A DNA stretch of 47,592 bases, taken from positions 1 to 47,592 of IMG/VR virus record IMGVR_UViG_3300032046_000046; one strand, 5' to 3'. Shown piece after piece: positions 7,784 through 39,655 of the stretch. Position numbers and translations under genes: made by a program. The notes under the pieces were generated by a model. That model was not told where the DNA came from and did not search any database. It saw nothing but the letters and a program-made list of their open reading frames with translations. The number at the start of each line of letters is the position of its first letter. Position 1 is the stretch's first letter. Source of the stretch: a virus.

Positions 7784-8683
7784 ATGACTGGAAAAGTATT
7801 GACGAAAGAAGATATTGAAAGTGGAGTAAGTCCTCACGATAAGGATACTTCTCCTGAACTCATTCCATCTGAACAGAAACTCGATCAAGATGGGAATGTG
7901 ATTGAGGAAGAACCCGAAAAGGAAGAAACTCTACCAAAGAAAGAAGGCGACGAAGAACCTCTACCTAAACCTTCAGATGAGTTCAAACCTAAGCATAAGA
8001 CTTGGGAAGAGACAGAGAAGGCGAGGGTTGAATCTGAGAGGAAGATGCACGAGGCTACGACTAAGGCATCCACCCTTGAAAGGGAACTTACTACTTATAA
8101 GAAACCCCCTGAGCCAAAGGTTCCATCTATTGACGACAAGATTGCTGAGATTGCTGATGATGCTATCAAACAGATTGGGGCACTCCCCATTGAATACGAC
8201 AGTGAAGGGAAACCAACTTCTGTTTCAATGACGAAGCGTGATAGGGATGCTGCAATCGTATGGGCTAAGGCACAACGTACTATTTCACGTTTGGAGATTG
8301 ATGCGAGTAGAAAAGAAGTAGAGGGGGAACGTAGCATTGTGAGTAAGACATACAAACGTGCACAGGATGAGGGACTCAAGACTGATGCCGAATTACGCAT
8401 TCTTGGATATGAGTTTTCACGTACCGATCCCAACTTGTCTGTGGATGACCGCATTAATGAGGCTATCACTAATACAAAGGGAATGTTGGGTCAAGTGCGA
8501 GAAGGTTTCGTACAGTCTCAGGAAAAGGACAAGAAGGATAAAGATGCTCTGAGGGTATTAGGTAGGGGTTCCAGTCGCACAGGTGAAAAGGAAGAAAAGG
8601 GTAGTGGCAAACCCACTACCATGTCGGATCAATTAGTGAAAGTCAAAGAGAGTCGAAGGGTCAAAAAGGATGACCTATTTTAA
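7784..8683 (+). CDS. Capsid scaffolding protein (putative)
   Basis: A 299-residue protein with ATAGGAGGAAAATCAC before the ATG. It is extremely charged: residues 1-75 are acidic and Pro-rich, then a long Lys/Glu coiled-coil-like stretch (ETEKARVESERKMHEATTKA). The C-terminus is basic (KVKESRRVKKDDLF), as expected for a scaffold that docks on capsid subunits. It ends 12 bases before the major capsid gene, the usual place for a scaffold. The role in directing procapsid assembly is known for the family; here it is inferred from composition and position. Confidence 0.75.
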   Translation: MTGKVLTKEDIESGVSPHDKDTSPELIPSEQKLDQDGNVIEEEPEKEETLPKKEGDEEPLPKPSDEFKPKHKTWEETEKARVESERKMHEATTKASTLERELTTYKKPPEPKVPSIDDKIAEIADDAIKQIGALPIEYDSEGKPTSVSMTKRDRDAAIVWAKAQRTISRLEIDASRKEVEGERSIVSKTYKRAQDEGLKTDAELRILGYEFSRTDPNLSVDDRINEAITNTKGMLGQVREGFVQSQEKDKKDKDALRVLGRGSSRTGEKEEKGSGKPTTMSDQLVKVKESRRVKKDDLF

Positions 8684-8695
8684 AGGAGGATAAAT

Positions 8696-9652
8696 ATGGG
8701 AACATTTACATGGACTGGATCACTCGCAACTGGCTACAGCGTTTGCGAGGAGATGTCAAAGGAGCTCAGGTACGCTGCGGTGGAGCAGTTTGAGATTGCT
8801 CAGTTTTGCCGTAAGGAGCCTGGGTTTGGAAGGAAGAAAGGGGATACTATCAACATTACCAAAATCAAGAATATTGCTATTCCAACATCTGCCCTTCTTG
8901 ATGAGCACACTGATATCCCTGTTGATACCTTGACGATTGGGACGACTCAGATCGTGGCACAGGAACTTGGTAGGGCTGTTGAGTACACAAGCCTTGCTCA
9001 AGATTTTGCACGATTTGATGTTGAAGTCCCCGTTCAGAGGAGACTCAGGGATCAGTTGGCGGCAGTCAATGATGGGTTGGCTGGCACGGCGTTTAAGACA
9101 ACCTATGTTCGTGCGGTTCCTACGTCTACAACGGCAGTCACATTTGACATACCAGCTTTTGCAAATGTGGCTACAAATAATGTCAATGTAGTTCACTGTG
9201 GGGCAATTAGAGATCAGATGAAGGCGGTATACAAAATCCCCTATTATGAAAGCGGGAACTACATTGGTCTTGGTTCAACCAAGTTACTCCGTGGTATCAA
9301 GAGTGATCCTGATTTTCAGGCATGGAGATACTGGCTGAGACCAGGGGATGTGTTGTTCAAGAGTGAAGTAGGGATTGTGGAGCAGATCAGATGGATCGAA
9401 GTTACCAATACCGATGTCCTCTCAGGATCAAAGGGTGCTGGATCGGTACTGGGTGAAGGACTTGTGTTTGGTGAGGATGGAGTGGCAATTGCGGAAGTTG
9501 AGACTCCTGAGTTACGAGCGGCTATCCCTGGTGGATATGGAAGATGGAAGGGAATGGCATGGTACGGCGTTCTCGGATACGGACTGATCTGGAATGCGAC
9601 AAGTTCCGCTGGAGAAGTCAGAGTTGTCTACATTACAGGAGAGGCTTCATAA
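8696..9652 (+). CDS. Major capsid protein, N4-gp56 family
   Basis: A 318-residue protein with AAAGGAGGATAAAT before the ATG. Family features are visible: an N-terminal segment leading to FCRKEPGFGRKKGDTINITK, then PTSALLDEHTDIP and IGTTQIVAQELGRAVEYT, a mid-region GNYIGLGSTKLLRGIKSD, and a C-terminal GYGRWKGMAWYGVLGYGLIW block. Members form HK97-fold shells of podovirus-like phages. It lies directly after the scaffold candidate and before a small probable decoration protein. This is the most securely identified structural gene in the window. Confidence 0.85.
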   Translation: MGTFTWTGSLATGYSVCEEMSKELRYAAVEQFEIAQFCRKEPGFGRKKGDTINITKIKNIAIPTSALLDEHTDIPVDTLTIGTTQIVAQELGRAVEYTSLAQDFARFDVEVPVQRRLRDQLAAVNDGLAGTAFKTTYVRAVPTSTTAVTFDIPAFANVATNNVNVVHCGAIRDQMKAVYKIPYYESGNYIGLGSTKLLRGIKSDPDFQAWRYWLRPGDVLFKSEVGIVEQIRWIEVTNTDVLSGSKGAGSVLGEGLVFGEDGVAIAEVETPELRAAIPGGYGRWKGMAWYGVLGYGLIWNATSSAGEVRVVYITGEAS

Positions 9653-9660
9653 CAAACAAC

Positions 9661-9686
9661 TAATACCTGATAAGTAACAGGTATTA
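9661..9686 (+). other. Hairpin after major capsid gene
   Basis: TAATACCTG (9661-9669) pairs exactly with CAGGTATTA (9678-9686), an 8-base loop between them. It lies between the capsid and decoration genes. No T-run; probably a stability or attenuation element. Confidence 0.55.
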
Positions 9687-9711
9687 ACTAATCAGTAAGG
9701 AGGATAAGTTT

Positions 9712-12329: not shown

Positions 12330-13313
12330 ATGCCCGAACACGCATTAACTCTACAAGGGTGGGCAGGGATACATAATGCAGGGGATCAGTATGATATTCC
12401 CATTACGGATCGCCTGGCGTACCTCAAGACTGCCATCAATGTGGATATTGATGATAAAAGAATGCTCCATCGTAGGCAAGGAAGAAGTCGGGTCTATACA
12501 GGCACTCCTCGACAGATATGGCCTCAAACAGATGTGGGGATCACATATTCCATCATCCTTGAGGGGTCAAGCATGAAGCAACTCAATCCAGATTTCGGAA
12601 CCCCTATCACGCTTCTAACTGGACTTGATACAGTGTCCCTCATGGATTTCGTATATGTCGGTGGAAGAGTGTACTACACCAATGGAACAGTAATTGGATA
12701 CATCAAAAATGAGGTAGCAACACCATTTCCGGCTCCGAGTTCGGATAAGCAATTCAAACGCACACTAAAGGCTGGAACATATATTGAGTATTACAGGAAT
12801 CGTTTATATACAGCAAAGAGTAATGTGATGTCATTTAGTGATGCGGTAAGGTTCTACCGCATGGATTCACGCTACAACCATAAGCAGTTTGATGGTGAGA
12901 TTACCATGATGAGAATGGTGAATGATGGAATGTATGTGAGTGCAGGAAAATACACCTATTTCCTGCATGGTGCATCTCCAGAGAAGATGACACCTGTTAA
13001 GGTTACTGAATCCCCCGCATTTCATGGTAGTGGGGTGAGAGTAGAGGCACAGAAGTTACTTCCCAATGCAAAAGGATTTGCAGTTTATTGGGAATCGAAG
13101 GAAGGAATATTCGTAGGACTATCAGGGGGTGACGTGACGAACGTGACGTGGCACAAGTGGAGTCCGCCCATTATCCCCAATAGGACATCTGCCACAGTAA
13201 AGAATGATAGAGGGTATTGGCACTACGTGTGTGCATATGAGTATCCTGCATTGCCAGGATTTGAGATTTCAGGAAGATTCCCTGCTTGGTCAGGAGTCGT
13301 CACGGTATTATAA
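12330..13313 (+). CDS. Beta-propeller-like tail/stabilisation protein
   Basis: A 327-residue protein starting three bases after the previous stop. The pattern of repeated aromatic and Gly/Asn blocks (GGRVYYTNGTVIGYI, YYRNRLYTAKSNVMSFSDA, GKYTYFLHGASPEKMTPVKV) is that of phage propeller-type tail proteins placed after the adaptor gene. Its final 17 residues, FEISGRFPAWSGVVTVL, are one unit of a repeat found six times in the protein at 15628-16671. It may therefore be the front half of a protein whose repeat and C-terminal halves are encoded elsewhere. Confidence 0.55.
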   Translation: MPEHALTLQGWAGIHNAGDQYDIPITDRLAYLKTAINVDIDDKRMLHRRQGRSRVYTGTPRQIWPQTDVGITYSIILEGSSMKQLNPDFGTPITLLTGLDTVSLMDFVYVGGRVYYTNGTVIGYIKNEVATPFPAPSSDKQFKRTLKAGTYIEYYRNRLYTAKSNVMSFSDAVRFYRMDSRYNHKQFDGEITMMRMVNDGMYVSAGKYTYFLHGASPEKMTPVKVTESPAFHGSGVRVEAQKLLPNAKGFAVYWESKEGIFVGLSGGDVTNVTWHKWSPPIIPNRTSATVKNDRGYWHYVCAYEYPALPGFEISGRFPAWSGVVTVL

Positions 13314-13335
13314 TATTAAATAGGAGGTAACTACA

Positions 13336-14109
13336 ATGTCGTGGAAATGGAGTACAGGATTAAGGGATTATGTAATGGGAAAGGGGTCGTTCAGAGATGC
13401 TTTTACAGATTGTAAATTGATGTTATACACCAGCCCTATCCCTACGGAGGCAGATGATGTGCCAACTGGAACGTATCTCGGTACATTTACTAAGTCCAGT
13501 GATACTACGGCAGCAGAACTCTTACGTGGATGGGGGGAGATAGAAAGCGAAACGATAACAGATGCAACAGCAGGAAGAACCTATGGGTTTACTTGTACGG
13601 GTTCCCTCGATGGGGCAGTCACTACCGCCACATACATCGTAGGTGCTGCCTTAGCTGTTAAAGATGTGGCTGTTAGATGCGTTCGTCTGTTTACCGATAT
13701 TGGGTATAATGCTTGTGCCACAGGTTCGGATGGAATTATTTACATCATGGCCCCCAACAATCAATCAATGACAATTGCATTGGCCGCAGGTATGACAGGA
13801 GCTATTACTCCATCGGCTGGTATATATCCTACGGATGCAAATTCACTTCTCCGATTTGGTGCTCCTTCTCTGGCAAGCATCGCAAAGGATACAGGACAAA
13901 CGTGGTCTGGGGTAATGTTTGCATCAGGAACAGCAGCCTATGGGCGTATCGTAGACATCAACGACACTGGTGCGGATATCACTACTGAAAGACGACTACA
14001 GGGAACAGTAGGGGTAGGTACAGGAGATATTCAGATTACTAACGCCAATCTCACGGCACTTGCCACTGAAACTGTCACCACCTGTGCTTTTACATTCCCT
14101 GCTGAATAA
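13336..14109 (+). CDS. Hypothetical virion protein
   Basis: A 257-residue protein with TAGGAGGTAACTACA before the ATG. It begins with a motif typical of small phage virion proteins (RDYVMGKGSFRDAFTDCKLMLYTS), also recalling the 620-1042 protein (KMALYTSS). The remainder is Thr/Ala/Gly-rich with probable beta structure (RTYGFTCTGSLDGAVTTATY). No enzymatic motif. It is probably structural. Confidence 0.5.
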   Translation: MSWKWSTGLRDYVMGKGSFRDAFTDCKLMLYTSPIPTEADDVPTGTYLGTFTKSSDTTAAELLRGWGEIESETITDATAGRTYGFTCTGSLDGAVTTATYIVGAALAVKDVAVRCVRLFTDIGYNACATGSDGIIYIMAPNNQSMTIALAAGMTGAITPSAGIYPTDANSLLRFGAPSLASIAKDTGQTWSGVMFASGTAAYGRIVDINDTGADITTERRLQGTVGVGTGDIQITNANLTALATETVTTCAFTFPAE

Positions 14110-14121
14110 GGGTAATGTCTC

Positions 14122-14304
14122 GTGATTACTAAAGAGGCCAAAGAACTAAGGAATCTACTTAACAGAAAGTTTCGTGAGGTGGCTGTTGAACAAGATAAGT
14201 CTGTTGTCTCCATTCCACCTCCAGGGTATTGTCCTGTGAGTAATTTATATGTCGATCCAGAGACAGGGAAACTCGTAGTCATTTATGATGATGTTCCACG
14301 ATAG
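14122..14304 (+). CDS. Small phage protein, unknown function
   Basis: A 60-residue protein with a GTG start; an ATG at 14115 is out of frame. A basic helix (KEAKELRNLLNRKFREV) is followed by a compact end, YVDPETGKLVVIYDDVPR. That end resembles the C-terminus of the next gene product (AADGKLEADYDDVAV), so the two may share a domain. Function unknown. Confidence 0.5.
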   Translation: MITKEAKELRNLLNRKFREVAVEQDKSVVSIPPPGYCPVSNLYVDPETGKLVVIYDDVPR

Positions 14305-24319: not shown

Positions 24320-27300
24320 ATGTCGAACTCAGTTAAGTCTGAAGAAGAAAGATTATACGATCCCGCTATCGAGACGGCCAAGACCCTCGTGACTCAACCC
24401 TGGGGAGCGGTAGAGACGGGAGCCAACCTGTTCTCTCAAACCTACGGACTGCCTGCAATGGGACTCGCAGGAGTGGCTGGATTGCCCTTCGGGAAAAGTC
24501 GAGAATGGAGTGAGGCCGTGGGGAAGGGTCTCATTTATCAACCTCAGACAGAGGCAGGACGCAAAATCACTGAAGCAACATTTATGCCCTTTGAGTTACT
24601 TGGTAGAGCATCAGAGAAAGGGGCTGATATTGCAAGAGAGGCGAAGGGAGGCAGACCATCTTCATCTGAGTTCCCGTGGATGGCAGAGGCAATGCCATTT
24701 GGTGAACGTGAACCTACTGAGGAAGAGAGAGCAATGGCCGGTACTGTTGCGGGAACCGCCATAATGTCATTACCGCTTCTGCTAGGGTTAAGGCGACATG
24801 GTGCACCTACACAATACCCCAAAGTCCCATCTGATGTCATAACACGAATGCGAACAGGAGAGGGCACAGTCCCATCACCTAAACCCACAGCAATTTCACC
24901 AATTCCTCAATTACCTGCCGTTCCACGACCTGCTACTGAACCTGTGCCTACTCCATTACCTATTGGACTACGGCCTCCTATACCAGAAGTCAGTCCTTAT
25001 ATGCGAGAGGCTCCTGTGTCACCTGAAGTTAAGATTAGACGTGCAGAACTGTTTGGACTCAAAAAAGGTATTATACCTGAACTTGAATCTGCACGTAAGG
25101 CACTTGAACCTATCAAGGAGATGCGTAAAATTATAGATAGTGATTTAATTGGCGTACCAGAAATAAACCTTAAAAAAGGATATTCCTTCCACCAAGTACG
25201 CAAGTATCTGTCTACTGTTTCGTTAGATGACTTTGGGAAAATTGAAATCCCTGGCTTCCGGTTAATAGAAAAGAAACCCGATTATGCAAAGGAACACATT
25301 GCGTGGTTGGAGTCCAACGGGGATATTGCACTCTCTGTTGATTTTTTTGAGCATAGTGCAAAAGACAGAATGGATATTCTTAGCCACGAATTTGCACACA
25401 AGGTTGAATCTATTATACCTGCTGAAGAGAAAGTAAAACTATTCGACAACAAGAAACTGATGTCCTACAGGGGCAGAAATATAAATGAGAAACTTGCAAA
25501 TTGGATACAAGGTGGTAATGCTTTATGGGATATTGGTATTCCAGAACAATATAGATATTTAGCAATGCCAGATGTTGATGTTCCATTAAACATTGAAAAA
25601 TTTATAAAAAGTCATACATTTGCTGTTAGAGGAAAGTTACCAAAGGAGATGCGTAGGGTCGAAAGTGGAGTGGCACGTATACCCTATGAAGAATGGTCAA
25701 AGAATCCAGAATTGGTGTCTGAGGCCAAACTTGCAGCAGAGAAGGCAAAAGTGACACCTGACAATCTTGAATACGTAGGATTGCAGAAATTCACCCCTTA
25801 TTCCAACGATGCTATGCACTTGTGGAATGTGACTGACCCCAGTAGTCCTAAGTATCAATCTACGGTTGCAGGCCCCACATTTCAACTCACAGAGGGTCAA
25901 ACAAAGAGGTTACGTCCAATGGGGGTGTTGAAGGGGCAAAGAGGGAGTCTGGGAGAGACTAAACCTGTCCCAATGTGGTATTCCACTCTCCAACGCACTA
26001 TCGAGGATAAAATGCCTAACTCTGCCCCTGTGGAGCAGGTGAGAGCACTGCTGAATACGCCAGGGGTGAAAGTTGATGAGGTAAAGTGGACAGGGTTGGA
26101 TGATTTCTTAGCGAGTAAGACAGGGAAGGTGAGTAAGAATGATGTGATGCAACATTTGAGGGAGAATGAAGTGAAGGTGGAGGAGGTAGTGAAGGGTGGG
26201 CCTTCTGGGTTTAAAACTCATATGGGGCCATTGACAACGGACATTAAGTTTTTCCAATGGCAACTCCCAGGTGGAGAGAATTATAGGGAGTTGTTACTTA
26301 CATTGCCACAAAAAGAGTCTATACGATTACGAGAAGTACAAACCCGTTTGGATGAAATTTCAGCAAAACCTGCGCAATGGCATAAAGAGCATCCAGAGAT
26401 ATTGAAAGAATGGGATGCACTAATGATAGAAGGAAATAAACTAATTGCTGAACGACCTCCTACGTTCAAGGGTACTCACTTCGATGAACCCAACGTCCTC
26501 GCCCATGTTCGCTTCAATGACCGTGTAGATGCACAGGGGAAGAAGGTGCTGTTCATTGAGGAAGTGCAATCTGATTGGCATCAGGCGGGGAGGGAGAAAG
26601 GATATAAGGGAGAATGGGAGAAAATAAATAAGGAATTTGAAGATTTCTTAAAACAGAAAGGGGTTAAGGTTAGCGAAAAACCAGAAGAACGTATAACAGG
26701 GGCAATGTTGGAAAAAGCAGGTGCTCATCCTGAAATGATAAGCAGATGGTACGAACATTTGAAAAGCATTAAAGGTATTCCTGTACCCGCCGCTCCCTTC
26801 GCTAAAACTTGGCACGAACTCATGATGAGACGCATGGTCAGGTGGGCATCAGAGAATGGATACGACAAGGTTGCATGGACTACGGGGGAACAACAGGCGG
26901 CAAGGTATGATTTGAGTAAACATATTAATTCTATTGATTATGAATATAATGGTAGTACAAAAACAGGAAGATTGATTGCTTTCGGAAAGGCCAACGAACC
27001 TGTAATAGAACAAGGTGGAGTTAGACCTGAAGAAATTGAAAGATATGTCGGGAAAGAACCTGCTCAAAAGTTACTAAATCAGATTAAGGAACCAGATATT
27101 CCATTTAAGTTTGCAAGAATCGAGGGTGTTGACCTCAAGGTCGGCGGCGAAGGCATGAAGGGTTTCTATGACAAGATTATCCCTGAATATATGAATAAGT
27201 TTGGGAAGAAGTGGGGAGCAAAGGTGGGGGAGACACAATTTGAACAACCGTTTACGGGTGAGTTAAGGGGACTACCAGGAGAAAGTGCGATAGATGCTCT

Positions 27301-27511
27301 CAAGAGACAACGCAATGAAAAAAATATGGTGAAAGTTCATTCCCTCGACATCACCTCCTCCATGAAGAAATCCGTTCTCGAAGAAGGACTACCCTTATTC
27401 CAACTCCTTCCACCCGTCGCTGTAGGAGTAGGATTACTCACAGAACGTCTCACACGTGAAAAACGTAAATCACAACCGTCAAAACAGAACGTAATCAGGA
27501 GTCAGAAATGA
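24320..27511 (+). CDS. Giant ejection-type protein with HExxH motif and polyvalent-protein-like domain
   Basis: A 1063-residue protein, the longest in the window. Residues ~40-70 and ~135-155 are hydrophobic. HEFAH at 356-360, in the context DILSHEFAHKVE, is a zinc-metallopeptidase-like motif. From ~565 on there is a domain known from large polyvalent phage proteins: PVEQVRALLNTPGVKVDEVK, GGENYRELLLTLP (~650), FIEEVQSDWHQAGREKGY (~743), AWTTGEQQAARYDLSKH (~852), GGEGMKGFYDKIIPEYMNK (~943) and a short LDITSSM...LPLFQL end. Such proteins are injected with phage DNA. Peptidase activity is not shown; a third zinc ligand could not be assigned. Confidence 0.6.
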   Translation: MSNSVKSEEERLYDPAIETAKTLVTQPWGAVETGANLFSQTYGLPAMGLAGVAGLPFGKSREWSEAVGKGLIYQPQTEAGRKITEATFMPFELLGRASEKGADIAREAKGGRPSSSEFPWMAEAMPFGEREPTEEERAMAGTVAGTAIMSLPLLLGLRRHGAPTQYPKVPSDVITRMRTGEGTVPSPKPTAISPIPQLPAVPRPATEPVPTPLPIGLRPPIPEVSPYMREAPVSPEVKIRRAELFGLKKGIIPELESARKALEPIKEMRKIIDSDLIGVPEINLKKGYSFHQVRKYLSTVSLDDFGKIEIPGFRLIEKKPDYAKEHIAWLESNGDIALSVDFFEHSAKDRMDILSHEFAHKVESIIPAEEKVKLFDNKKLMSYRGRNINEKLANWIQGGNALWDIGIPEQYRYLAMPDVDVPLNIEKFIKSHTFAVRGKLPKEMRRVESGVARIPYEEWSKNPELVSEAKLAAEKAKVTPDNLEYVGLQKFTPYSNDAMHLWNVTDPSSPKYQSTVAGPTFQLTEGQTKRLRPMGVLKGQRGSLGETKPVPMWYSTLQRTIEDKMPNSAPVEQVRALLNTPGVKVDEVKWTGLDDFLASKTGKVSKNDVMQHLRENEVKVEEVVKGGPSGFKTHMGPLTTDIKFFQWQLPGGENYRELLLTLPQKESIRLREVQTRLDEISAKPAQWHKEHPEILKEWDALMIEGNKLIAERPPTFKGTHFDEPNVLAHVRFNDRVDAQGKKVLFIEEVQSDWHQAGREKGYKGEWEKINKEFEDFLKQKGVKVSEKPEERITGAMLEKAGAHPEMISRWYEHLKSIKGIPVPAAPFAKTWHELMMRRMVRWASENGYDKVAWTTGEQQAARYDLSKHINSIDYEYNGSTKTGRLIAFGKANEPVIEQGGVRPEEIERYVGKEPAQKLLNQIKEPDIPFKFARIEGVDLKVGGEGMKGFYDKIIPEYMNKFGKKWGAKVGETQFEQPFTGELRGLPGESAIDALKRQRNEKNMVKVHSLDITSSMKKSVLEEGLPLFQLLPPVAVGVGLLTERLTREKRKSQPSKQNVIRSQK

Positions 27512-31975: not shown

Positions 31976-32251
31976 TTATTTTATTAGTCTCTCTATTGCA
32001 CTTACTGTTTTCTTCCATGCCTCGTGATCTACCCCATCTCCTAAGAAGCAACCCGAATTTTCAACAAGTTCCAATTCCTTCCTGATTTCCCCCACAATTT
32101 GAGTCAACTGATCCTTCGTGAGGTAATTTCTATATTTGATAACCAACTCACCAGCCAGACTCGACATATAAGTCCTACGTCCCATTGAGTAACGAATAGT
32201 TGACATTAAAAGAATCCACATGTCATTTTTATCTACAGCAAGTAACCTCAT
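31976..32251 (-). CDS. Conserved small phage protein
   Basis: A 91-residue protein with GAAAGGAGGATGAA before the ATG. The motif DMWILLMSTIRYSMGRRTYM followed by LVIKYRNYLTKDQLTQIVGE and a late DHEAWKKTVSAI belongs to a recurrent phage/bacterial small-protein family of unknown function, mainly helical. It is the last minus-strand gene, meeting the plus-strand operon end to end. Confidence 0.6.
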   Translation of the reverse strand: MRLLAVDKNDMWILLMSTIRYSMGRRTYMSSLAGELVIKYRNYLTKDQLTQIVGEIRKELELVENSGCFLGDGVDHEAWKKTVSAIERLIK

Positions 32252-32324
32252 TTCATCCTCCTTTCCTCATCCATTCAAATCCCCAACTGTGTTATCAGGG
32301 CAAATTGGCTTGTTAATAATATTG

Positions 32325-32687
32325 TTATGCCTCTAAATATCGAATCAGCTTTCCGTGGGCCTCCGCATATTCAATCTCACTTCGAGTCGATTCACCGATA
32401 TATCCTCCTACGTTCAAAATCAATACTTTGTTAGCAAGATCAATTTTCCGTTTATGGAGTTCATCAAGTCGTCTTTTTTGCAACTTCCCGTTTGGGCTAT
32501 TTGGATGGGCCAAGATTTTGGAATCAGGAGCACATATCCCAATCGACAAAACAATTTTCCCCTGGGGCGTCAACTTCAAGCCTATATCCCTGAATGTTTT
32601 CCAAAAGCGAGTGGAACCGCAAAGACAAACAATTTCCGGCATAACAACCGGCTGCACTTGAGCCGGAATAGCTCGTTTAGATTTCAT
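32325..32687 (-). CDS. Nucleoside 2-deoxyribosyltransferase-fold-like protein
   Basis: A 120-residue protein with GGAGGAATC before the ATG. The core MPEIVCLCGSTRFWKTF...VLSIGICAP...ELHKRKIDLANKVLILNVGGYIGESTRSEIEYAEAHGK has the CGSTRF and GGYIGESTRSEIEYA motifs of the nucleoside 2-deoxyribosyltransferase-like fold. Phages use related proteins in nucleotide salvage. Normal family members begin at the second Met (32642); here 15 extra residues are encoded by an attC-like hairpin that also supplies the ribosome binding site. Enzyme activity is not proven. Confidence 0.65.
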   Translation of the reverse strand: MKSKRAIPAQVQPVVMPEIVCLCGSTRFWKTFRDIGLKLTPQGKIVLSIGICAPDSKILAHPNSPNGKLQKRRLDELHKRKIDLANKVLILNVGGYIGESTRSEIEYAEAHGKLIRYLEA

Positions 32688-32724
32688 GATTCCTCCTTAC
32701 CGGCCAAGTGAGCCGGAGCGTTAT
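32641..32724 (+). repeat. attC-like recombination site 1
   Basis: The left arm 32641-32666 (ATAAC, CCGGCT, CACTTG, GCCGG blocks) pairs with the right arm 32700-32724, ending GTTAT. The left arm carries an extra G between CCGGCT and CACTTG and an extra A before GCCGG; the right arm lacks both. A 33-base loop contains the start codon and ribosome binding site of the minus-strand gene at 32687. This end-box plus extrahelical-base layout is diagnostic of integron attC sites. The core boxes match only the invariant AAC/GTT part of the consensus. Confidence 0.6.
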
Positions 32725-32892
32725 ATTTCCGCTAATAACTTTTGGTAAATTCGTGTAAGTGTAGCCTTATCTCCACAATCAGTTTCTTCGATCAACCAAC
32801 GTAAATGTATAATAAGTAAGTTGATCTGAAAAGTCGTTAATTTTATTATTTTCCATTTTTTCATTTTGATTGCATCCAAGCGGAAATATAAC
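32720..32892. repeat. 14-bp inverted repeat flanking the 32721-32864 gene
   Basis: GTTATATTTCCGCT at 32720-32733 and its exact reverse complement AGCGGAAATATAAC at 32879-32892 face each other. The outer ends coincide with the right end-box of attC-like site 1 and the left end-box of site 2, so this cassette is bounded by an inverted repeat longer than the core boxes alone. Confidence 0.6.
32721..32864 (-). CDS. Small cassette-borne protein, unknown function
   Basis: 47 residues from the ATG at 32864, or 60 from a TTG at 32903 that lies inside attC-like site 2. Neither start has a clear ribosome binding site. The body (TTFQINLLIIHLRWLIEETD, LTRIYQKLLAEI) is helical and looks like a genuine small phage protein. 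It is the only gene of a 243-bp block between attC-like sites 1 and 2, and it reads opposite to the orientation of those sites. Confidence 0.45.
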   Translation of the reverse strand: MKKWKIIKLTTFQINLLIIHLRWLIEETDCGDKATLTRIYQKLLAEI

Positions 32893-32967
32893 CATTCACT
32901 CAAGCCGACCGTGGATAGTTTGTTACGATTCAGTCCACGGCAGTCGGCGGCTTAGTTCAGTCGTTAT
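32888..32967 (+). repeat. attC-like recombination site 2
   Basis: The left part ATAACCATTCACTCAAGCCG (32888 on) and the right part GGCTTAGTTCAGTCGTTAT (ending 32967) pair as in classical attC sites. The left CTCAAGCC has an extra C relative to the right-hand strand (CTAAGCC). An inner stem, CCGTGGA/TCCACGG (32909-32915 with 32934-32940), closes an 18-base loop. Sequence and layout strongly resemble known cassette sites, and the orientation matches sites 1 and 3. Confidence 0.7.
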
Positions 32968-33015
32968 GTATAAAAATTATTCTCGTTCTTCAACACTGTA
33001 AATTTTAGTCCTGAA
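32962..33015. repeat. 54-bp direct repeat, copy 1
   Basis: Starts CGTTATGTATAAAAATTATT and ends AATTTTAGTCCTGAA. It matches 33615-33668 at 49 of 54 positions, and all five differences are transitions. It begins in the right end-box of attC-like site 2, exactly where copy 2 begins in site 3. Confidence 0.85.
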
Positions 33016-33020
33016 TATTA

Positions 33021-33239
33021 TTAATTAAATCCTCTTATAAACTTTCTCATCTTATCGGATGTATTTAAATTACCAATCATCATTAATCCCATTCCAAGTT
33101 CGATACCAATATGACCTGCTGTTTCAGAATGCTTACTTAGGTCTGAACACATTGAGGCAAATGCCTGTGGTAAATCTCCGGCATCCACATATTCCAATGC
33201 CCTATCCTTGCACCATTGCAAATGCTCATTTCTTGTCAT
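33021..33239 (-). CDS. Conserved small phage/bacterial protein
   Basis: A 72-residue protein with AAAGGAGAAAACT before the ATG. The pattern TRNEHLQWCKDRALEYVDAG, FASMCSDLSKHSET and LMMIGNLNTSDKMRKFIRGF matches a well-conserved family in phages and bacteria whose function is unknown. One of two genes in the 653-bp block between attC-like sites 2 and 3. Confidence 0.65.
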   Translation of the reverse strand: MTRNEHLQWCKDRALEYVDAGDLPQAFASMCSDLSKHSETAGHIGIELGMGLMMIGNLNTSDKMRKFIRGFN

Positions 33240-33282
33240 AGTTTTCTCCTTTTATCCTCCATTCAAATCCGTATATCTCTTG

Positions 33283-33558
33283 TTATCTGTATTTAAAGGC
33301 TCGTGGCTTCCATTCCTTTGATGATATTAATTTGGATATACGATGTTCTGCTTCTTTACTGTCTTTTTGATGTTTGAGCCTCAAGATACAATAATCCTGA
33401 TGCAGGTGCTCGATAAATATAGTATCAACTCTTTGATGATTGTGAGACCATAAATGCCGAGGACTTATGCTAATGATGTCGTTTTCTACTTTTACAAGGA
33501 ATTTACCAATCCAATATTCCCCATCTTCGATTGCGGGTGGCCTTATTATTTTTTTCAT
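33283..33558 (-). CDS. Small cassette-borne protein, unknown function
   Basis: A 91-residue protein with AAGGAGATTTT before the ATG. It is basic, with beta-like segments first (GEYWIGKFLVKVENDIISIS) and a His-rich middle (SHNHQRVDTIFIEHLHQD), ending in a basic helix. No family recognised. It is the first minus-strand gene of the block between attC-like sites 2 and 3; site 3 begins 12 bases upstream of its start. Confidence 0.5.
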   Translation of the reverse strand: MKKIIRPPAIEDGEYWIGKFLVKVENDIISISPRHLWSHNHQRVDTIFIEHLHQDYCILRLKHQKDSKEAEHRISKLISSKEWKPRAFKYR

Positions 33559-33569
33559 AAAATCTCCTT

Positions 33570-33620
33570 ATAACAAATCACTCCAGCGGACGCCAAAAGC
33601 GCCGCTGACCTTATCGTTAT
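33570..33620 (+). repeat. attC-like recombination site 3
   Basis: A compact 51-base site: the left arm starts ATAACAAATCACTCCAGCGG, the loop is CAAAA (33594-33598), and the right arm is GCGCCGCTGACCTTATC then GTTAT (33616-33620). The left arm has an extra C (CTCCAGCGG against GTCAGCGG) and an extra A at 33590 (AGCGG[A]CGC). Both extra bases sit on the left arm, as in sites 1 and 2 and as in the top strand of classical cassette sites. Confidence 0.7.
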
Positions 33621-33668
33621 GTATAAAAATTATTCTTGTTCTTCAATACTGTGAATTTTAGTTTTGAA
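33615..33668. repeat. 54-bp direct repeat, copy 2
   Basis: Starts in the right end-box of attC-like site 3, identical to copy 1 (32962-33015) apart from five transitions. The spacing of 653 bp between copies equals the length of the block between sites 2 and 3. It is non-coding: it lies between the 33558 gene start and the 33726 gene stop. Confidence 0.85.
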
Positions 33669-37294: not shown

Positions 37295-39655
37295 TCACTT
37301 TATTTTCTCTTGACTCCCCCACCTCTTCCCCACCTTCGGTTCAGCCTTGATGGGGATGGATAATTCCACTACATTCTCCATGATCGGCACAACTGCATCA
37401 ACATATTCACGAATAAAGTTGTCTCTAACCTCACTTGTAATGTCATCATGGATCTGGATTAAGGGATATACTAATCCTTCCTTGATCCATTCTTGCATCC
37501 CGCCGTCCCATATTTGTCTCATGGCTTCCTTGATGATTCCTTGTGCACCGGACTGCATAGGTACGTTAGTGGCCTTACGCAATCCCGCATCACGAATGGG
37601 GCGGAATATCGATTTAACTTCGGGGATAAGTTTCATCCTTCCCCACATGTCAGAAATCTGACCATAACGTTTCACATCTCGATCCGTGCGATTCCAGAAT
37701 TTTTCTACACCTAAATGTTCCCTTAACCACGAGTCAATCAACCACTGGCACTTCCCTTCATCCCACTCAGCCAATCCATCCCCCTGCAATTGTACACTCA
37801 ATCCTCGTGCAGTAATTCGATATATCACACCGAACCCTGTACGTTTGGATGGGTAGCGGTGCTTAACTTCATCCACGTTGTTAGGATTGGTGATATTGAA
37901 TGTTCTCATGGCTGTATCCGTATGGACATCACCATTGTTGCGATACACAGAGAGCAATACAGGATCTTGGCTAAAATGTGCCATTAGACGCATCTCAATT
38001 TGATTTAAGTCTATAGATACTATAGAATATCCCTCCTCCGCAATGAATCCATCCCTGATACGTCTACCGTCAGATGTACGTACTGGCTGTGCAAGGAGAT
38101 TAGGGTCTTTGCAAGCCAATCTACCAGATTGTGCTACACGCACCATAGATATTTTAGCGTGAACTCTACCATCGCCTTGAGTGAAGGTTGGAAGTACATC
38201 AATGTACTTATCCTTCAAATCCTTGCGTGATCTATATTCCTCGATCATTCCCACAACGGGATGTTCATCTTCAATTTTCTTGAGTGTCTTGGCTCCTGTC
38301 GTACCTCCGAATCTCGTTCGGTCAATCCTGTGTCCTCTTCCCAGTTTCAGGCATTCATATATTAACTTCGATACTTGCTGTGCCGATTTAGGATTGAACT
38401 CAAGACTCTTAGACTTTTCCTTCGGCTTCCATCCAGATTTAACTGCCATTTTATGAATGTCACCTAATAATGCAATGTTCTCAACCTCAAACTCTGTTCC
38501 CAATTCTTCCAGATATTTGACATCAACCTTCATCCCCCTCTGCATCATAGCGATAATCATGGGTTGAATATCCATGTCACGTTGCAACACTTCCCCCATA
38601 CGTTCATACCACAAAGGTAACATACGATTGTAGACACGCAAGGTAGCATCCGCATCAGCACACGCATATGCCAATCTCTCATCCTCTGGCACATCACTCA
38701 AATCACGATCAGGGAATAACTTCTCGGCTTCGGCTATTGGTATCCCCATTCCTCCCCACACCACATCATCATACTCTCCCATTTTCATTCTATCAAGGCG
38801 ATATGCAAGAGGTTTGAGTCCAAGTGGGAGAGTTTGAAGTAGAAACGCAATCTGCATTGTGTCGATCCAGTAATAAGGGTGGATGCCGAGTTTCCATAGT
38901 TGGGGGAGATCGTAGAGAGCATTGTGAAGAACTATAGTCATCTTGGGATTAGCAACTTTTTCTCTTGCAATAGTACACAACTCTAAATTATCGGCATAGA
39001 ATACGGATGCTCCTCCTTCACTGCCAGAAGATGTGACAATGTATGGCGTTCCGTCGAAAAGAGCTTCAGTATCTAAGGCACAAATATAACTTTTCTCAAA
39101 ACCCCTCCATACTTTAGTTGGTCGTGCGACTGATTGAACTTGTAATTTATCATCCATTACCAATCTCATATTCTGAAATGCCTCAATCACCCACGCCAAC
39201 AGATGACTACTACCCTCACGAAATGTTGCAGCAGGATGAATAGACGGCACTACTATTCTTCCTTCCCACATGTGAGGCATTCCGTTTAGTGCCTCCATGT
39301 CATATTCGTTTCCGAGGAACCAATGAGAAGAGATTGCACCGAGAGATAAAATAACATCGGGATTCACTTTCTCAATCTCCTCTCGCAACACACTTCCTTG
39401 CCACTCATACTCTGCCTGTGTAAATTCCTTCTTATTATTGAGGGGATAATGGAACAGATTTGTGACGTAGATTTCATCCCTCGTTAATCCAATGTAACGG
39501 TATAGAAGATTATTAAACTCATCCCCCGTCCGTCCAGTCAAGGGTATCCCTGTCTCACACTCTACTTTTGCAGGGGCCTCCGCTACTGCCATGTAGCGAC
39601 AGGGGATTGGGCCATGACCTTGAATGTAGTCGTATCTCAATTCACTCTCTCCCAA
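37295..39655 (-). CDS. DNA polymerase A with N-terminal uracil-DNA-glycosylase-like domain
   Basis: 786 residues. The N-terminal ~165 residues are UDG-like (AEAP 25-28, TGRTGDEF 40-47, VTNLFHYP 64-71, PSIHPAA 137-143). Then a 3'-5' exonuclease: D195xE197, NALYD 245-249, YACAD 330-334. The polymerase spans ~400-786: motif A SIDLNQIEMR (547-556), motif B RYPSKRTGFGVIY (600-612), motif C HDD (736-738). No 5'-3' exonuclease. This is the phage replicase. The start is TTG at 39655, or TTG at 39640, which has GGGAGAGAG upstream. UDG-PolA fusions are known in some phages. Motif C has HDD where HDE is usual. Confidence 0.9.
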   Translation of the reverse strand: MGESELRYDYIQGHGPIPCRYMAVAEAPAKVECETGIPLTGRTGDEFNNLLYRYIGLTRDEIYVTNLFHYPLNNKKEFTQAEYEWQGSVLREEIEKVNPDVILSLGAISSHWFLGNEYDMEALNGMPHMWEGRIVVPSIHPAATFREGSSHLLAWVIEAFQNMRLVMDDKLQVQSVARPTKVWRGFEKSYICALDTEALFDGTPYIVTSSGSEGGASVFYADNLELCTIAREKVANPKMTIVLHNALYDLPQLWKLGIHPYYWIDTMQIAFLLQTLPLGLKPLAYRLDRMKMGEYDDVVWGGMGIPIAEAEKLFPDRDLSDVPEDERLAYACADADATLRVYNRMLPLWYERMGEVLQRDMDIQPMIIAMMQRGMKVDVKYLEELGTEFEVENIALLGDIHKMAVKSGWKPKEKSKSLEFNPKSAQQVSKLIYECLKLGRGHRIDRTRFGGTTGAKTLKKIEDEHPVVGMIEEYRSRKDLKDKYIDVLPTFTQGDGRVHAKISMVRVAQSGRLACKDPNLLAQPVRTSDGRRIRDGFIAEEGYSIVSIDLNQIEMRLMAHFSQDPVLLSVYRNNGDVHTDTAMRTFNITNPNNVDEVKHRYPSKRTGFGVIYRITARGLSVQLQGDGLAEWDEGKCQWLIDSWLREHLGVEKFWNRTDRDVKRYGQISDMWGRMKLIPEVKSIFRPIRDAGLRKATNVPMQSGAQGIIKEAMRQIWDGGMQEWIKEGLVYPLIQIHDDITSEVRDNFIREYVDAVVPIMENVVELSIPIKAEPKVGKRWGSQEKIK

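Follow-up and report, generated by a model that had tools for sequence, protein, structure and literature searches.

Arrays of integron attC sites are already known from phages. The accessible portion of Qi et al. 2023 (PMC9892861) reports 17 clusters of attC sites lacking integrases (CALINs), with functional sites, in 10,705 phage genomes, including those of Tetrasphaera phage TJE1, Polaribacter phage P12002L and Pseudoalteromonas phage PH101 (H101), and states that five of six tested phage attCs recombined with IntI1, as do the attCs tested from PH101. Like the locus described here, these clusters comprise at least two attC sites and small accessory genes and have no integrase; their cargo includes DNA methyltransferases, and the phages that carry them are virulent or uncharacterized. 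The same portion of the paper describes the cassettes of PH101 and TJE1 as running in the same direction, like typical arrays, and contains no remark on reversed gene polarity, on starts encoded by attC, on an attI-like boundary in virulent phages or on turnover between near-identical strains. Nor did we find, in the open-access literature, any report of reversed phage cassettes, start codons within attC, a phage attI-like element or strain-level cassette turnover.

The other close comparison is with the sedentary chromosomal integrons of environmental bacteria, which have attC sites of the TCCAGCGGACG type. These share attC sequence, fold and extrahelical bases with the locus analysed here, and their cassettes are likewise cut at G|TT and complementary at their own ends. 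Such an integron is, however, defined by an integrase gene and a promoter, neither of which is present here, and its genes precede attC; the classical gene cassette similarly consists of one ORF with attC downstream (3'), whereas here attC lies 5' of every ORF.

The DNA under study (hereafter the window) is the whole of a 47,592-nucleotide stretch of a viral contig, IMG/VR record IMGVR_UViG_3300032046_000046. The original prediction placed three imperfect palindromes at 32641-32724, 32888-32967 and 33570-33620, each beginning with ATAAC, ending with GTTAT and having paired arms, and inspection of the sequence confirmed all of this for all three. To score them we built covariance models trained only on bacterial chromosomal attC sites. 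Scanning 84,980 species genomes of bacteria and archaea with a pattern from the left arm of site 3 yielded 112 stretches from many phyla; 43 clean bacterial attCs were aligned to give model R1, with 20 base pairs modelled, and 150 sites found by R1 in bacterial loci gave model R2, which was run with filters off. R1 matched sites 3 and 2 and nothing else across the window, while R2 matched all three sites on the plus strand, in agreement with the single orientation that had been proposed, and its next-best match in the 47.6 kb reached 10.7 bits. The expectation that an attC covariance model would recognize the sites was therefore borne out, strongly for two of them and significantly for the third. 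The features of the locus are as follows.

31976-32251, minus strand: ORF of 91 aa, PHROG 11947 (unknown function), for which the boundary element is the 5' leader
32292-32324, plus strand: boundary element TTATCAGGGCAAATTGGCTTGTTAATaatattG|TTA at the left end of the array, inferred to be attI-like, with a 26-bp match in other phages
32325-32720, plus strand: cassette A, 396 bp, with its start GTTATGCC complementary to its own end GGCATAAC (R'' of site 1)
32325-32687, minus strand: gene of cassette A, deoxyribosyltransferase-like, 120 aa, the first 15 aa (MKSKRAIPAQVQPVV) encoded by attC site 1
32640-32726, plus strand: attC site 1 (R2, 23.4 bits, E 2.5e-4)
32721-32963, plus strand: cassette B, 243 bp, with ends that pair over at least 14 nt (GTTATATTTCCGCT)
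32721-32903, minus strand: small ORF of cassette B, 60 aa from TTG or 47 aa from an internal ATG
32887-32969, plus strand: attC site 2 (R1, 35 bits, E 3e-7; R2, 47.8 bits, E 7.6e-12)
32964-33616, plus strand: cassette C, 653 bp, with two ORFs, bounded by G|TT
33021-33239, minus strand: ORF C2 of cassette C, 72 aa
33283-33558, minus strand: ORF C1, 91 aa, with an SD, AAGGAG, that starts inside the R'' flank of site 3 (GTTATAAGGAGATTTTATG)
33569-33622, plus strand: attC site 3, of textbook bacterial type (R1, 53.9 bits, E 1.1e-12; R2, 50.8 bits, E 8.5e-13)

These results, together with the structural features of the sites, confirm that the three are real integron attC sites. Two attC sites of PH101, which served as a positive control, score 31.5 and 30.3 bits with R2, below window sites 2 and 3; the attC sites of TJE1 and P12002L are missed by R2, indicating that attC types differ and that the model is not exhaustive. 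Folded as single-stranded DNA, the window sites are stable (z from -2.1 to -4.5), with both R boxes paired in the bottom-strand fold of each site and the R boxes of sites 2 and 3 unpaired with each other in the top-strand fold. Extrahelical bases lie on the left arm only in all three sites, as had been noted, although the model alignment gives site 2 a second one (A) that had not been listed. Across 88 phage attCs, 84.8% of alignment cells are paired compared to 72.1% in shuffles, and double changes occur in 17 of the 20 pairs. The window sites fit the full RYYYAAC/GTTRRRY consensus only approximately, which is also true of many bacterial training sites. Site 1 departs from the usual type, scoring only 23 bits and having little of the unpaired central spacer that is present in sites 2 and 3. 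Rfam at gathering scores gave no match in the window.

The window contig contains no match to TIGR02249 or PF00589, as expected from the proposal of a CALIN-like array with no integrase in view. With three attC sites within 980 bp and no integron integrase, the locus qualifies as a CALIN; it does not qualify as a complete integron (intI, attI and promoter Pc), having no integrase and an attI-like element that is hypothetical. The window and its three array-bearing relatives (together G000-G003, including the relative called G3 below) yielded neither an integron integrase nor a tyrosine recombinase, but because the window contig is probably incomplete, an integrase elsewhere in this phage cannot be excluded. 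Among 30 other viral records, the sole clear integron-integrase-like match (G026; 364-366 aa, low score) reads as an ordinary phage integrase and was set aside.

The cut point G|TT divides the array into the three units A, B and C. The 243- and 653-bp cassette-like blocks of the original prediction proved exact (32721-32963 and 32964-33616), but there are three cassettes and not two, because the gene at 32325-32687 belongs to site 1, in a unit that starts from the G|TT at 32324. In bacterial integrons the start of a cassette complements its own end, since both meet in the excised circle. Using consecutive sites, we compared each cassette start with its own R'' and with the R'' that it abuts in situ. 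The own end matched better in bacterial arrays, with a mean of 8.2 bases versus 5.4 for the abutting attC (75 better, 8 worse, p=1e-12), and also in viral arrays, with 7.4 versus 4.8 (41 better, 3 worse, p=9e-8). Cassettes A and B clearly have the G|TT borders and complementary ends of a mobile unit; in cassette C the complementarity is limited to GTTAT. A 55-bp direct repeat, 91% identical, is found at 32961-33015 (directly after site 2, at the start of cassette C) and 33614-33668 (directly after site 3), which suggests that a duplication of the right flank either gave rise to cassette C or was caused by it; taken together, the repeat and the poor end match suggest duplication or a lost partner. 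The repeated flank, GTTATGTATAAAAATTATTC, has no exact match in the viral contigs. The units are genuine mobile cassettes, with turnover itself observed in another phage lineage (L041, below).

Phage cassettes are reversed in gene polarity relative to bacterial ones. The original prediction had small phage genes lying between the attC sites, and ORFs are indeed present, but it was silent on their orientation: all array ORFs in the window are on the minus strand, antiparallel to the sites, placing attC at the 5' end of the genes. For comparison, the longest ORF between each two consecutive sites was used to call orientation in bacterial loci and in viral contigs, the latter being metagenome assemblies; most loci of both sets had been selected by one and the same pattern. 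The longest ORF was parallel to attC in 98 bacterial cases and antiparallel in 12 (98/110), whereas in viral contigs 12 were parallel and 47 antiparallel (47/59; p=2e-19). When each locus was given one vote, with L021, L028 and L037 left out as strains of L041, the parallel:antiparallel ratio was 35:4 for bacterial and 1:15 for viral loci (p=5e-9). A test independent of ORF length looked for translation signals, an SD-like motif with a start codon, next to the R boxes. Within 70 nt on the outer side of R'', viral sites had them in 50 of 78 cases and bacterial sites in 15 of 138; on the outer side of R' the counts were 4 of 78 (viral) and 46 of 138 (bacterial). By GenBank annotation, the cassettes of the isolated phage PH101 are antiparallel as well. 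This polarity sets phage cassettes apart as a pool distinct from bacterial ones and hints that attC is a source of translation signals. No near-identical cassettes common to viral and bacterial loci were found; the only likeness was similarity within methyltransferase families, plus one 53% match (L040 with L140).

Site 1 provides a start codon directly, which the original prediction had not noted. Its loop carries AAGGAGG and ATG on the minus strand, reading AAGGAGGAATCATG, and from there the frame crosses the arm and the R'' box and enters gene A, such that the 15-aa leader MKSKRAIPAQVQPVV precedes the protein. Sites of this type also occur in the window's sister phage L003 (two), in the more distant relatives G2 and G3 and in L014, with a partial copy in L036. 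In L003, G2, G3 and L036 the same leader stands at the head of unrelated proteins, and in L014 it opens a short ORF; the tails that follow it in these five are mutually unmatched. A second ORF of L003 begins MKKRVVKTQVQPVV, and in G2 another leader, MTKENSGLSNVRSN(D/E)LL, opens three different ORFs. How new cassettes originate is an open question on which such in-frame leaders, fused to unrelated proteins, have a bearing. Without its leader, gene A has phage homologues that align over 95-98% of the query length, among them LR756501 (48%) and a 'deoxyribosyltransferase' of Anabaena phage A-1(L). The small ORF of cassette B and ORF C2 have no family match and ORF C1 has no match in phages; overall, Pfam, PHROGs, NCBIfam and PDB yielded almost nothing on the functions of cassette proteins, only gene A having (deoxyribosyltransferase-like) relatives. 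Separately, cassette genes of L041 at 8092-8844 and 8945-9706 encode a PAPS-reductase-family protein and a DNA methyltransferase, for which a role as counter-defence cargo is plausible.

The boundary element at the left end of the array, likewise absent from the original prediction, is shared with other phages. Its 26 bp at 32292-32317 recur exactly in G3 and in L041 with its strains, which are two further phage lineages, always at an array or cassette boundary; in these and in the window the left end of the array reads TTATCAGGGCAAANTGGYTTGTTAAT, then 4-6 bases, then G|TTA. Even with up to 5 mismatches allowed, the element does not appear in the 740 kb of bacterial attC loci. The left flanks of near-identical phages end at this element, with different cassettes directly after it. 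We infer, as a hypothesis, that it is an attI-like docking site: like the attI sites of integrons, it stands at the left end of the array beside the first G|TTA and cassettes change after it, but unlike them it has no integrase beside it, and it presumably has no clear sequence identity with attI1. A variant attC remains possible instead, because L041 has two tandem copies of the element, one of them ending a cassette.

Related phages with different genes between such sites, which would be expected of mobile cassettes, were found and include near-identical strains. L003, whose DNA polymerase is 72% identical to that of the window phage, has its array between nuclease and polymerase genes, and the small genes that its sites enclose are different; G2 and G3 have longer arrays. 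Cassette turnover with exact G|TT junctions is seen in the L041 lineage. The left flanks of L041, L021 and L028 are 99.9-100% identical over more than 6 kb, and the cassettes that follow are a-b-c-d-e-f in L041, g-h in L021, where the right flank is 100% identical to that of L041, and g-h-b-i in L028; L037 has a-j-c with the right flank of L028. Cassettes common to these four contigs are 97.7-99.6% identical, and every junction falls at G|TT, whole blocks having been exchanged. Cassette h of L028, however, differs from that of L021 in the attC arm itself. One cassette is also common to L003 and L030 (87% over 220 bp), with no other similarity found between the two. Strain-level exchange was thus seen in the L041 lineage and not in strains of the window phage, for which only L003 (~72%) was found; a clade search with DNA polymerase, nuclease and capsid queries returned only L003, G3, L158, G2, L160 and L161, among which the short contigs L158, L160 and L161 lack attC. 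Phage genomes are mosaic, but few mechanisms are known for exchanging single genes at defined sites; here, integron sites appear to be where phages of virulent type exchange individual accessory genes, and there is evidence of turnover at the strain level.

Our preferred reading, to which we assign a probability of about 0.8, is that the window contains an array of integron cassettes that is borne by the phage and has no integrase of its own, composed of an attI-like left boundary and cassettes A-C, each ending in a functional-type attC, and served in trans; recombination at the sites and the attI role are inferred. The proposed catalyst is an integron integrase acting in trans, whose most likely source is a host that bears an integron. 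It would cut attC at G|TT on the folded bottom strand, and cassettes would thereby be inserted, excised and reordered within the accessory region of the phage, drawn from a phage-specific pool with attC at the gene 5' end. Transcription of the minus strand would pass attC first, and attC or its R'' flank would supply the ribosome-binding site and sometimes the start codon, such that an incoming cassette could be translated within the phage's own transcript with no integron promoter needed. The host integrase as catalyst is an inference made without a host, an excised circle or an assay for these sites, and an expression advantage of ribosome-binding sites close to attC is also inferred. The catalyst could be an unrecognized recombinase, and some exchange may reflect homologous recombination between similar attC arms, because a shared cassette can differ in its attC arm. 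A broader proposal, that phages own an integron-like system separate from bacterial integrons, with a pool of reversed-polarity cassettes, attC as a portable 5' leader, a phage-specific attI-like dock and a recombinase in trans, is put forward tentatively and at slightly less than even odds; if it is true, the system lets virulent phages exchange their accessory genes singly.

Since hairpins are abundant in phage genomes and a reader without tools can be misled by them, we considered whether the palindromes resemble attC only by chance or convergence, as terminators or other phage hairpins might. This is extremely improbable and, for sites 2 and 3, refuted, given E values of 1e-12 and 8e-12 from models trained on bacterial attCs, a next match in 47.6 kb of just 10.7 bits, and sites that lie on one strand with one layout and cassette structure in between. 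Real attC sites could still be inert relics, fragments that illegitimate recombination took from a host integron and that have since lost their mobility. The lack of an integrase on the contigs, the degenerate or truncated state of some sites (the cassette shared with L030; the site-1 copy in L036) and the absence of extended end complementarity in cassette C would all fit such an origin. Nevertheless, compensatory changes preserve the fold across phage attCs, complementarity to the own end persists, near-identical phages differ by whole cassettes with exact junctions, and a captured bacterial array would not show reversed polarity, making decay to relics improbable.

The sites might instead be maintained mainly as 5'-leader elements that provide a ribosome-binding site, a start codon or mRNA stability, with the variation produced by homologous recombination between hairpin arms and no integrase involved. 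The position of the SD and start next to R'', the start codon and leader encoded by site 1, the likeness of attC arms within an array and the location of some exchange points inside attC arms (cassette h, L028 versus L021) are all compatible with this explanation, and it keeps some weight. We nonetheless regard it as unlikely: complementarity to the own end is a product of circularization at G|TT that homologous recombination would not be expected to leave, a leader has no need of the R boxes and extrahelical bases that have been retained, and cassette starts diverge immediately after G|TT.

Several additional observations were made on these genomes. In L006/L007 (IMGVR_UViG_3300020171_000022) there are two separate attC arrays, at ~16.2-19.4 kb (plus) and 25.4-27.5 kb (minus), in opposite orientations within a single phage genome and with genes mostly antiparallel in both. 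The attC-bearing G3 (L010/L013, IMGVR_UViG_3300031885_000010; 66.4 kb) is probably a complete genome, although IMG/VR classes it as linear, because a 121-bp repeat (120/121 identical) is found at both ends. Positions 26063-27243 of the window, inside the gene at 24320-27511, match L010 at 12995-14139, including 370 bp at 95% identity and shorter blocks at 88%; a block of this identity within one large gene of otherwise distant phages is a sign of recent recombination. Finally, the polymerase ORF at 37295-39655 (minus strand; 786 aa) encodes a family A polymerase fused to an initial region that resembles a uracil-DNA-glycosylase-like domain, judging from motifs of the GEAPA...GRTG type.
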